From a virus, in the IMG/VR virus record IMGVR_UViG_3300047546_000407, positions 1-38,407 of that record: 38,407 bases of DNA; one strand, given 5' to 3'. The stretch's first letter is position 1. Each line of letters begins with the position of its first letter. The position numbers were made by a program, and so were the translations under genes. Below, piece by piece: positions 31,342-35,664 of this stretch. The notes below the pieces were generated by a model. That model ran no database searches. It had not been told where the DNA came from and was given only the letters and a program-made list of their open reading frames with translations.

Positions 31342-32265
31342 ATGCAATCGCTAGTGAACCCGAACAGCTACGACGTAGAAGTTATTGGTAGGATCGCCGA
31401 CGTTCCACTGCCGAACATTGCGTCCAGTGCAGTGCTGGCCGAGCTATCCATCGGGGCGTTCAACCCCCAGCGCACCGACGAGCGCGTCACCGAGGCCGTG
31501 CATACGGCGGAACACGCAGCCCGCTCCAGCGGCAAATACGTCAAGCGGCTTTACGCCGACACCAAGCAGTTCGTCCAGATCAAGACGCTGGAGATGCGGG
31601 CGCGGCACTTCCACCGGAAGATGACGATGCCGTGGTCGGACGGCGGGCAGCGGTTGCTGATTACGTCGCTACTGCCGGAATACGTGACCGGGATCACCGA
31701 GATCGAGCAGCAGTTCTGGGGGGTGGTCACCGACATTCAGGAGAACTACGACGCGATCATGCGCTACGTGCAGTATCGGATGGGTAACACGTTCGACGCG
31801 ACGCTGTATCCGTCAGCGGACAACCTGCCGAAATACTTCAAGTTCCACCACGCCCGGGTGCCGGTGCCGGAGGTCAACGACTTCGACAAGGTCGCGAGCA
31901 GCGCGCAGCAGATCATGCGGGACGAGTTCGCCAAGCACCTTGAGCATATCCGCAACGGCATCGTGGAGGAGGTGCGGGAGAACACCAAGAAGGTGCTTCA
32001 GAAGATGAGCGAGCGCCTCGACTTCAGCGGCGAGGGTAAGGACAAGAAGACGTTCAAGAATACGCTGGTGGACAACGTGCGCGACTGGCACGAGAAGATG
32101 GGGCAGTTCAACAACGTGGTGAAGCTGCCGGATATCGACACCCTCTACGGGCAGGTAGGTGGCATCCTCGCCGATTCCAACCCGGAGGTGCTGCGGGTGA
32201 ATGCGGACGTGCGGCGTAGCGTCAAGTCACGGGTCGATGCGATCCTGACGAAGATGGACTGGTAG
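31342..32265 (+). CDS. DUF3150-like protein, first gene of the MoxR-VWA block
   Basis: The 307 residues are helical and charged. Segments include YVKRLYADTKQFVQIKTLEM, MTMPWSDGGQRLLITSLLPE, YVTGITEIEQQFWGVVTDIQ, and long helices near the C-terminus (AKHLEHIRNGIVEEVRENTK, LADSNPEVLRVNADVRRSVK). I recall this type (DUF3150) beside MoxR and VWA genes in phages and bacteria, but name the family with moderate confidence. It may be a substrate, adaptor or inhibitor for the pair. GGAG precedes the ATG. It is the first gene behind the promoter and hairpin leader. Confidence 0.85.
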   Translation: MQSLVNPNSYDVEVIGRIADVPLPNIASSAVLAELSIGAFNPQRTDERVTEAVHTAEHAARSSGKYVKRLYADTKQFVQIKTLEMRARHFHRKMTMPWSDGGQRLLITSLLPEYVTGITEIEQQFWGVVTDIQENYDAIMRYVQYRMGNTFDATLYPSADNLPKYFKFHHARVPVPEVNDFDKVASSAQQIMRDEFAKHLEHIRNGIVEEVRENTKKVLQKMSERLDFSGEGKDKKTFKNTLVDNVRDWHEKMGQFNNVVKLPDIDTLYGQVGGILADSNPEVLRVNADVRRSVKSRVDAILTKMDW

Positions 32266-32321
32266 ATTAGAAGTAATACCGTAATAACAAGACGCTTTTA
32301 ACTTAAAACGGAGATACAAGC

Positions 32322-33440
32322 ATGAGTAACGTCCTGAGCAACGCGTTCGACCTGTCGATCAATCAGGTCTTCAACCTCATCAAGACCATCGGGCGCACGC
32401 AGACGGTGATGGTGCAGGGCCATATGGGTTCGGGTAAATCTTCGCTGCTGAAGATGCTGGCTGCCGAGTTCCCCGAGCATACGCCGGTCTACTTCGACTG
32501 CACGACGAAAGACCTGATGGACTTGGGGGTGCCGAAGGTGGTCACGCACGAGAACGGCAACGAGTTCGTCACCTTCCCGACGAACGAGGAGTTGGGGCTG
32601 CACCTCGACAAGCCGGTGATCCTGATGTTCGACGAGTGGGGGAAGAACAAGTCGATCAAGCTCGCTACCCTGCGCGTGATGCTGGAGCGCCAGTTAGGTA
32701 ACCGCAAGCTGCACCCGGATAGCATCGTGTTCGCTACGACTAACCTCTCCGGCGAGAATGTGGGTGACACACTGGAGGCGCACGCTCGCAACCGCTTGAT
32801 GATCGTGCGGATGCGCAAGTCTACGGCGGAGGAGTGGGTGCAGGACTACGCGATCAACGCAGGCATTCACGAAGTGCTGGTGGCGTGGGTGCTGCGCGAA
32901 ACGCCGCAGGTGTTCCAGTCGTATGAAGAAGTCGAGAACCCGGATGCGCCCGAGCCTGCCGGTAACCCCTACATCTTCCACCCGAAGGCAGTCGGTCGCA
33001 TGGCGTTCACTACGCACCGCTCGATTGCGGCGGCTAGCCCGCTGATGTATGCCCGCGAGCAGATGGACGAGGAGACGTTCCGGGCAGCCCTCGCCGGGAC
33101 CGTGGGTGTGCGCGCTGCGTCTGACCTTGCGAGCTACGTGAAGCTTGCTGAAGAGATGCCTACGCTGGAGGAGATCAAGGAGAACCCGAAGGCGGCGCGT
33201 ATCCCGACCTCGCCTGCGGCGGTGTGTATGGTCATCATGCGCACGCTCAACACGCTGTCGCGGGATTGGGTCAACGCGTGGATGGACTACTTCATGCGTA
33301 TGCAGCCCGAGGAGCAGGCGCTGTTCGTCCTCTCCGCACGGCACGAGAAGTACAAGCACCGGGAGATGGTGATGACTAACAAGAAGTATACGGAGTGGTG
33401 CCTGAAGAACCAGCACCTCTTCGCCGCCGACAAGAAGTAA
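32322..33440 (+). CDS. MoxR-type AAA+ ATPase
   Basis: The 372-residue ATPase has Walker A GHMGSGKSS at residues 33-41, Walker B PVILMFDEW at about 98-106, and a sensor 1 region VFATTNLSG. The loop around EAHARNRLMIVRMRKSTAEE probably holds the arginine finger. The C-terminal ~150 residues form the helical lid. MoxR-class AAA+ proteins act as hexamers that remodel partners carrying VWA domains. The next gene encodes exactly such a partner 11 bases downstream. The start ATG has GGAGATACAAGC. Confidence 0.93.
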   Translation: MSNVLSNAFDLSINQVFNLIKTIGRTQTVMVQGHMGSGKSSLLKMLAAEFPEHTPVYFDCTTKDLMDLGVPKVVTHENGNEFVTFPTNEELGLHLDKPVILMFDEWGKNKSIKLATLRVMLERQLGNRKLHPDSIVFATTNLSGENVGDTLEAHARNRLMIVRMRKSTAEEWVQDYAINAGIHEVLVAWVLRETPQVFQSYEEVENPDAPEPAGNPYIFHPKAVGRMAFTTHRSIAAASPLMYAREQMDEETFRAALAGTVGVRAASDLASYVKLAEEMPTLEEIKENPKAARIPTSPAAVCMVIMRTLNTLSRDWVNAWMDYFMRMQPEEQALFVLSARHEKYKHREMVMTNKKYTEWCLKNQHLFAADKK

Positions 33441-34690: not shown

Positions 34691-34707
34691 CGTTCAGGAG
34701 AACGAGC

Positions 34708-35664
34708 ATGAGTGGATACAAAAACATAGCGGTTGCCGAGCTTCTTGCACCCGAGGACCAGCTTCTTGAACCGGGTAACTTGGAGGCTGCCCGGCAGAAC
34801 AGGTCATGCGGTTTTGTTAACGGCTATCCGGTGGTGGGGTGGCTTACGGCGCTAACTAATATGCTGCAGGTGTTCCCGGGTATCAAGTTCTACGCCCATA
34901 GCAAACACTGTAGGCTCCAGCGTTTTACCGATCTATCGGGGAATAATTTTTCTTCGGTCGCAGCATCGGAATTGTTTGTCTGTATTGACGACGATCCGTA
35001 TGCCGTCATGAGGATCGGCTTCGATAACTACCGGTATACGAACGGTAAGAATACGTTCGCGGTCTACGCGCGGGACATCCGCAACGCTAAGTATCACCCG
35101 ACCCGCGAGCAGTATTTCATGTCGATGTTCCTCGACCCGGGCAAGGCGTTCAAGGTTGCCGTCGCTAACATGCGCGTGCACACCACCGAGGAGTTGGCGA
35201 GGCTGCGGTATCGGAAGTTCTACAACCGCTCGACCGACGTTAGCAACCACAAGGCACGCGAGCTTGGGGCGCTCCTCGACAGTATCACTCAGCCGGTGCT
35301 GGTTCGCGAGATTCGTGCGGCAGTAGCTGCGGGGTATCAATTCAGCACGCCGGAATTTACCAGCGTAGCGGCAAGTCTTGAGGACGCCGTGGCTACGACA
35401 ACCCAAGCAACGCAGCGTCGGGTGGACGCGACCTACGTGCGGTTCATGCAGGGCGAGGGGGGGATGATTGCCCGCATGGCATCGACCTCCAACGTGCGTA
35501 AGACCTACGCCCCCGAGCCGAAGGATCAAGGTGTTGTGCCGCTCAACGAAGTGCCCGCCTTCATACAAGAAAAGGTTGCTGTGTTGCAGACACTGGAACC
35601 TGACAATTATATTGATGGTGTCGGCATGAAGGTTACCGACTACGAGTATTGGGTTGAAAACTAA
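34708..35664 (+). CDS. Unknown protein, fourth gene of the MoxR-VWA block
   Basis: The 318 residues are mixed alpha/beta. The front (KNIAVAELLAPEDQLLEPGN, CGFVNGYPVVGWLTALTNML) gives way to a middle with FVCIDDDPYAVMRIGFDNYR and YTNGKNTFAVYARDIRNAKY. A helical C-terminal half (AVAAGYQFSTPEFTSVAASL, and a final YIDGVGMKVTDYEYWVEN) closes it. No nuclease, ATPase or membrane motif is obvious. CAGGAGAACGAGC precedes the start 17 bases after the VWA gene. I do not recognise it; the tight spacing makes it a likely partner or target of the system. Confidence 0.85.
   Translation: MSGYKNIAVAELLAPEDQLLEPGNLEAARQNRSCGFVNGYPVVGWLTALTNMLQVFPGIKFYAHSKHCRLQRFTDLSGNNFSSVAASELFVCIDDDPYAVMRIGFDNYRYTNGKNTFAVYARDIRNAKYHPTREQYFMSMFLDPGKAFKVAVANMRVHTTEELARLRYRKFYNRSTDVSNHKARELGALLDSITQPVLVREIRAAVAAGYQFSTPEFTSVAASLEDAVATTTQATQRRVDATYVRFMQGEGGMIARMASTSNVRKTYAPEPKDQGVVPLNEVPAFIQEKVAVLQTLEPDNYIDGVGMKVTDYEYWVEN

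Follow-up and report, generated by a model that had tools for sequence, protein, structure and literature searches.

The window analysed here is an IMG/VR virus record taken whole (38,407 bp), which is classed as linear and is a fragment. The portal (phrog_1216), large terminase (phrog_38) and major head (phrog_371) genes were found on its minus strand, the identified head genes lying at 17-25 kb, and a block of small genes on the plus strand starts at about 25.8 kb. Four adjacent open reading frames, all of them real, occupy positions 31342-35664 of the plus strand: g1 (31342-32265, 307 aa), g2 (32322-33440, 372 aa), g3 (33452-34690, 412 aa) and g4 (34708-35664, 318 aa). The ATG of g3 is preceded by a purine-rich ribosome site, and a GTG at 33395 opens the same frame too. 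Purifying selection was found on all four genes, the median dN/dS among relatives being 0.16 for g1, 0.12 for g2, 0.14 for g3 and 0.34 for g4; these values are rough, as synonymous sites are near saturation in many pairs. Further to the right, 24-nt tandem repeats lie within a coding region at 36753-36829, and the right end of the window (38031-38345) holds an array of 12/18-nt repeats.

The g2 protein matched phrog_1297 (ATPase; 1e-43), the family of gp24 of phage N4, and is predicted to be an AAA+ ATPase in which the Walker, sensor and arginine-finger-like residues are intact. The Walker A motif GHMGSGKS (residues 33-40, including K39) was read from the sequence at 32418-32441, Walker B is formed by D104-E105, and G33, G36, G38, K39, D104, E105, N141 and R158 were invariant in 32 of 32 non-redundant sequences. 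All Pfam AAA models scored below cut-off with the window protein, one relative (L110) barely making AAA_5 (22.4 against 22), and the CobS equivalog model TIGR01650, whose cut-off is 558.55 bits, gave 15.7.

Two domains were found in order in g3, namely PF13203 (1.3e-24; 87.7 bits, cut-off 23.2) and PF09967 (3.7e-18; 66.3 bits, cut-off 26.4), and the protein matched phrog_1314 (2.1e-83), the family of N4 gp25. It is thus a predicted HExxH peptidase (DUF2201) joined to a VWA domain, with both the HExxH motif (HECMH, residues 77-81, at 33680-33694) and the MIDAS motif, which starts with DTSGS (residues 289-293, at 34316-34330), intact. H77, E78, H81, H86, D289, S291, S293, T353 and D377 were invariant in all 37 non-redundant sequences. 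The initial annotation had described the Walker A/B, HExxH and DTSGS motifs as intact and had singled out K39, H77/E78 and D289; both the motifs and the residue numbers proved correct, and these residues do not vary among relatives (32/32 for K39, 37/37 for the others). The label "HNH endonuclease" is carried by phrog_1314 and by GenBank/RefSeq copies (e.g. YP_950503.1, which is N4 gp25) and occurs on this family in many phage records. It was rejected as a misannotation, given that the proteins carry the DUF2201 peptidase and a VWA domain.

The mostly helical g1 protein had been called DUF3150-like. This assignment could be upheld only indirectly, because the window g1 itself gave no PF11348 match up to an E-value of 1, reached the cut-off of no Pfam model and matched no PHROG; the link was made through a homologue (L035) that scores above the curated PF11348 cut-off (28.6 against 24.9 bits) and through profile-profile comparison of the g1 family with true DUF3150 proteins, in which hhalign gave 92% probability and an E-value of 5.7e-7 over 115 N-terminal columns. 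On these grounds g1 is placed as a distant member of the DUF3150 superfamily. Matches to g1 in 50,697 phage records were limited to three cyanophage records of 65,014 bp, one of them annotated DUF3150. The predicted structure (pLDDT 84.6) has a helical bundle at its end, and generic helical bundles were the sole matches in fold searches. Bins of bacterial genomes also hold g1-type genes accompanied by g2 and g3; a part of these contigs could come from phages or integrated elements, and one has an integrase nearby.

For g4, neither a Pfam match over cut-off nor a PHROG match was obtained, and the family gave no tblastn match in the 50,697 phage records. It is an undescribed, fast-evolving family, reported here for the first time, whose evolution is two to three times faster than that of its partners (0.34 against 0.12-0.16). 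The best-kept part is its C-terminal motif, with a mean pairwise identity of 31% against 16-22% elsewhere; the corresponding domain lies at 35533-35661 in the window. Such a pattern would suit a protein that varies where it faces its target and keeps a fixed end for docking, and equally a fast-evolving substrate, and does not choose between them. The structure of g4, predicted at high confidence (pLDDT 90.2), had no confident match in the PDB (best Foldseek E-value 0.09). A Thermus complex I subunit, the best VIA-align likeness (Z 4.8, 92 residues at 4.3 Å), was too weak and was set aside. Four significant matches were found in BFVD, every one of them an uncharacterised protein of uncultured phages. 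The fold searches were run on the undivided g1 and g4 models, and no new fold is claimed.

In relatives, the C-terminal domain of g4 recurs in g4', a small protein encoded 3' of g4, which is present after g4 in 37 of 41 g4-selected loci and was also detected by a motif model made from the long g4 proteins alone. Stand-alone short versions of the domain (71-77 aa) follow g3 in two bacterial bins. A further gene, g5 (about 300 aa; e.g. L010:3188-4135, L006:5202-6074, L007:6627-7466, and others), was found in 30 of 41 representative lineages, its family giving no Pfam or PHROG match over threshold. Neither g4' nor g5 was found in the window.

The module had also been credited with its own promoter and leader. 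A sigma-70-like promoter (TTGCAA-17-TATAAT, 31211-31239) agreeing with 10 of 12 consensus positions was indeed located before g1 by consensus scan, but the scan of the region returned 4 sites against 2.8 by chance, so that this promoter is statistically weak alone. The leader fared better: it folds more stably than all 200 shuffles (z -4.6), and no fitting Rfam family was found for it. It contains a 29-nt hairpin, GGACAAACCGAC-N6-GTCGGAATGTC (31272-31300). The pattern GGACARACCGAC-N6-GTCGGAWWGTC, with a small internal loop, has five exact matches on the plus strand of the window (starting at 25885, 26914, 27545, 31272 and 33952), where shuffles gave an expectation of 0. The copies at 27545 and 31272 each have a promoter-like site before them and a gene's first ATG after them, and that at 33952-33980 falls in the g3 coding region, within a low-complexity linker. 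The simplest guess is that the hairpin is a protein-binding RNA or DNA site common to several transcription units. Besides the window, L174 was the only IMG/VR contig with the hairpin; its DNA is 99.96% identical to the window, and it was discarded as an independent occurrence, being the same phage. Repeats of GATGCTAGTTCCC flank the 26914 hairpin on both sides (26806-26838 and 26947-26979), and a similar sequence, GATGCTAGTTCCCC, is found at about 31163, upstream of the g1 promoter.

Linkage of the four genes was analysed in both directions. Scans of viral contigs with the single g4 and g1 proteins gave no match, the patterns being too specific; scans with g2, with g3 and then with alignments succeeded. 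The g1-alignment scan of IMG/VR yielded 327 stretches; the 80 best were retained and searched with profiles for each gene. Most of these best 80 carry all four genes, the remainder being largely truncated contigs. At loci with enough flank (at least 3.5 kb upstream and at least 6.5 kb downstream), again from the best 80 of 327, g1, g2, g3 and g4 occurred together in 22 of 23 cases (15 of 16 non-redundant), and in the exception (L067) a 159-aa open reading frame with the g4 C-terminal motif adjoins the end of g1. Conversely, a g4-alignment scan returned 41 loci, and g1, g2 and g3 were present in 20/20 of those with at least 4.9 kb upstream; the two locus sets overlap in some contigs and are not fully independent. 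The initial annotation had proposed a four-gene module and had named beforehand two observations that would count against it, a failure of the four genes to co-occur in other phages and an unlinked fourth gene; both turned out the opposite way, so that the module was borne out and includes the fourth gene. In total, about 41 lineages at less than 90% g3 identity have full-length copies of all four genes.

Two gene orders were distinguished, g1-g2-g3-(g5)-g4-g4' (order A) and g2-g3-g1-g4 (order B). In the g3 tree, order A lies on one side of a well-supported branch, with the window as its first-branching, long-branched member under midpoint rooting, which was used for drawing only. A family-A DNA polymerase gene was detected in 74 loci, a set that includes some copies of one contig; in every one of them it follows the module on the same strand, at a distance of 0.9-6.7 kb. 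The window's own polymerase may lie off the end of the fragment, because the window stops 2.7 kb past g4.

Homologues of g2 and g3 are known from Escherichia phage N4, in which gp24 and gp25 (phrog_1297/phrog_1314; core in Schitoviridae) make up a homologous pair of ATPase and DUF2201 peptidase-VWA protein, the two genes being neighbours or nearly so. Both are core genes in N4-like phages (PMC4193335, PMC7650795), transcribed as middle genes (PMC4193335). Taken with the near-fixed location before the DNA polymerase gene, this status favours a core role over the accessory region that the initial annotation had considered; in dozens of related uncultured viruses the module seems to be core equipment. 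In group 2.2 jumbo phages, a MoxR-vWA-metallopeptidase chaperone-cochaperone pair resembles g2-g3 in that the metallopeptidase is N-terminal on the VWA protein, and a match in PA5oct was found here; within the portion of the article available to us, it is described as a pair, with no word of a DUF3150, g4, g4' or g5 partner (Iyer et al. 2021, PMC7824862). Profile search detected neither g1 (DUF3150) nor g4 in N4, Presley and PA5oct, which have the g2-g3 pair, so that these two genes would have been either added to a wider g2-g3 pair or lost from it.

The Planktothrix/Synechococcus phage group (Pag-Yong1, MinM2) resembles the window in that its genes for the ATPase, DUF3150 and DUF2201-VWA are clustered, but differs in gene order, in having intervening extra genes and in that g4 was undetected; when g4 was compared by BLASTP with the two proteins downstream of the MinM2 VWA gene, no match was obtained. 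RavA-ViaA is likewise similar to g2-g3, combining a MoxR ATPase with a VWA cofactor and acting on protein complexes. ViaA is not known to carry an HExxH peptidase domain, nor is RavA-ViaA known to have a DUF3150 or g4 partner. The ternary conflict systems consist of a MoxR-vWA core and a third component, VMAP, iSTAND or FtsH (Kaur et al. 2020, PMC7159879). Their variable effectors are fused to the VWA protein, whereas the module has DUF3150 and g4 beside a constant DUF2201 architecture; no VMAP, inactive STAND or FtsH match was found for g1 or g4 with Pfam and PADLOC, models that divergent versions could escape.

Clear DUF3150 genes on plasmids and in bacterial genomes adjoin a CbbQ-type AAA_5 ATPase gene and a CobT-type VWA gene. 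On one IncC plasmid the order is AAA ATPase, hypothetical gene, ssb, bet, exonuclease, DUF3150 and VWA gene, the families having been assigned on a related Salmonella island. On these plasmids and the island (L135, the IncC plasmid pVC211, 3148-11141, and L134), an AAA_5/CbbQ-type ATPase, ssb, bet, a YqaJ-type exonuclease, DUF3150 and a CobT-like VWA protein stand in one block. These loci share with the phage module the grouping of AAA+ ATPase, DUF3150 and VWA, but their VWA protein is CobT-like and not DUF2201, g4 is missing, and ssb, bet and the exonuclease intervene on IncC. The arrangement suggests a mobile-element relative of the phage machine, beside recombination genes. As DUF3150 was seen both with phage g2-g3 and with a CbbQ-type ATPase and a CobT-type VWA gene, it looks like a third component that recurs in MoxR-VWA systems with two different kinds of VWA protein. 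This observation is new here: a search of 5.39 million papers returned no mention of DUF3150, and its link to MoxR-VWA systems was not found published.

The reading that we favour, to which we give about an even chance with its mechanistic steps included, is that g1-g4 encode one ATP-driven protein-remodelling, probably protein-cutting machine, a part of the core equipment of the lineage that would act most likely in early or middle infection. In such a machine g2 would form an AAA+ ring, g3 would hold a protein chain via its MIDAS and cut it, and g1 would be the scaffold linking the two. The g4 protein, with g4' where present, would dock by its C-terminal domain, its variable surface selecting or presenting the target; the best explanation of g4 and g4' is that they are adaptors or substrates of the machine. 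Evidence for a single machine comes from the linkage in both directions, the roughly 41 lineages, the invariant catalytic residues, purifying selection with g4 the loosest, the g4 C-terminal motif in g4', the polymerase position, DUF3150 between CbbQ-type ATPase and CobT-type VWA genes, and the core, middle-transcribed status of N4 gp24/gp25. Against it count the Pfam AAA matches of the window g2, which stay below cut-off, and the N4-like and jumbo phages: as these lack detectable g1 or g4, the two proteins would be dispensable for some g2-g3 pairs. A defence protein is a less likely target than a phage protein or a conserved host protein of the replication or middle phase, given that the machine appears to be core and not patchy.

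The main rival is a virion-assembly chaperone and protease that folds and trims phage structural proteins, with g4 and g4' as structural or scaffold substrates. Iyer et al. (2021, PMC7824862) proposed this role for the jumbo-phage pair, drawing on a parallel in the archaeal virus ATV. The gp24/gp25 homologues of roseophage RPP1 have the genes of four virion proteins close by (PMC4193335), and a core gene set is compatible with such a role. The module stands among replication genes, however, with the head genes of the window on the opposite strand, and N4 gp24/gp25 are middle genes, so that we regard virion assembly as a serious possibility that is nonetheless unlikely.

A protease for counter-defence or host takeover, which would act on an immunity or housekeeping protein of the host by unfolding or degrading it, g4 being the adaptor that faces the arms race, appears improbable. 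The fast evolution of g4 and the docking-like C-terminal domain common to g4 and g4', whose remaining parts differ, would be expected of it, yet the module is near-universal and near-fixed in the lineage and not patchy, the dN/dS of g4 is well under 1, and PADLOC gave no convincing match to a defence model, which weakens the earlier suggestion of a conflict or counter-defence system. Metal insertion, also raised initially, finds still less room: a machine that inserts a metal or cofactor, as CobS/CobT or CbbQ/CbbO do, would accord with the CbbQ-type ATPases and CobT-type VWA proteins that accompany true DUF3150 genes, but no chelatase signature was found, the CobS model is far under its cut-off, g3 is DUF2201 and not CobT, and a non-exhaustive look at the neighbours showed no metalloenzyme partner. 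We consider this reading very unlikely.

The MoxR-VWA-peptidase pair is a published core of N4-like phages and has been given no known job in that literature. Tentatively, the module might represent a new phage ATP-dependent protease, in which a MoxR ring would drive a VWA-tethered zinc peptidase around a DUF3150 scaffold, one that is found beside different VWA partners in phages, plasmids and chromosomes, and which would be aimed by interchangeable g4/g4' adaptors with one common docking domain. DUF3150 and the docking-domain family offer concrete partners to pull down for the pair, and they tie these phage systems to the unexplained DUF3150 genes of many conjugative plasmids, DUF3150 having been matched in 1,176 plasmid records.
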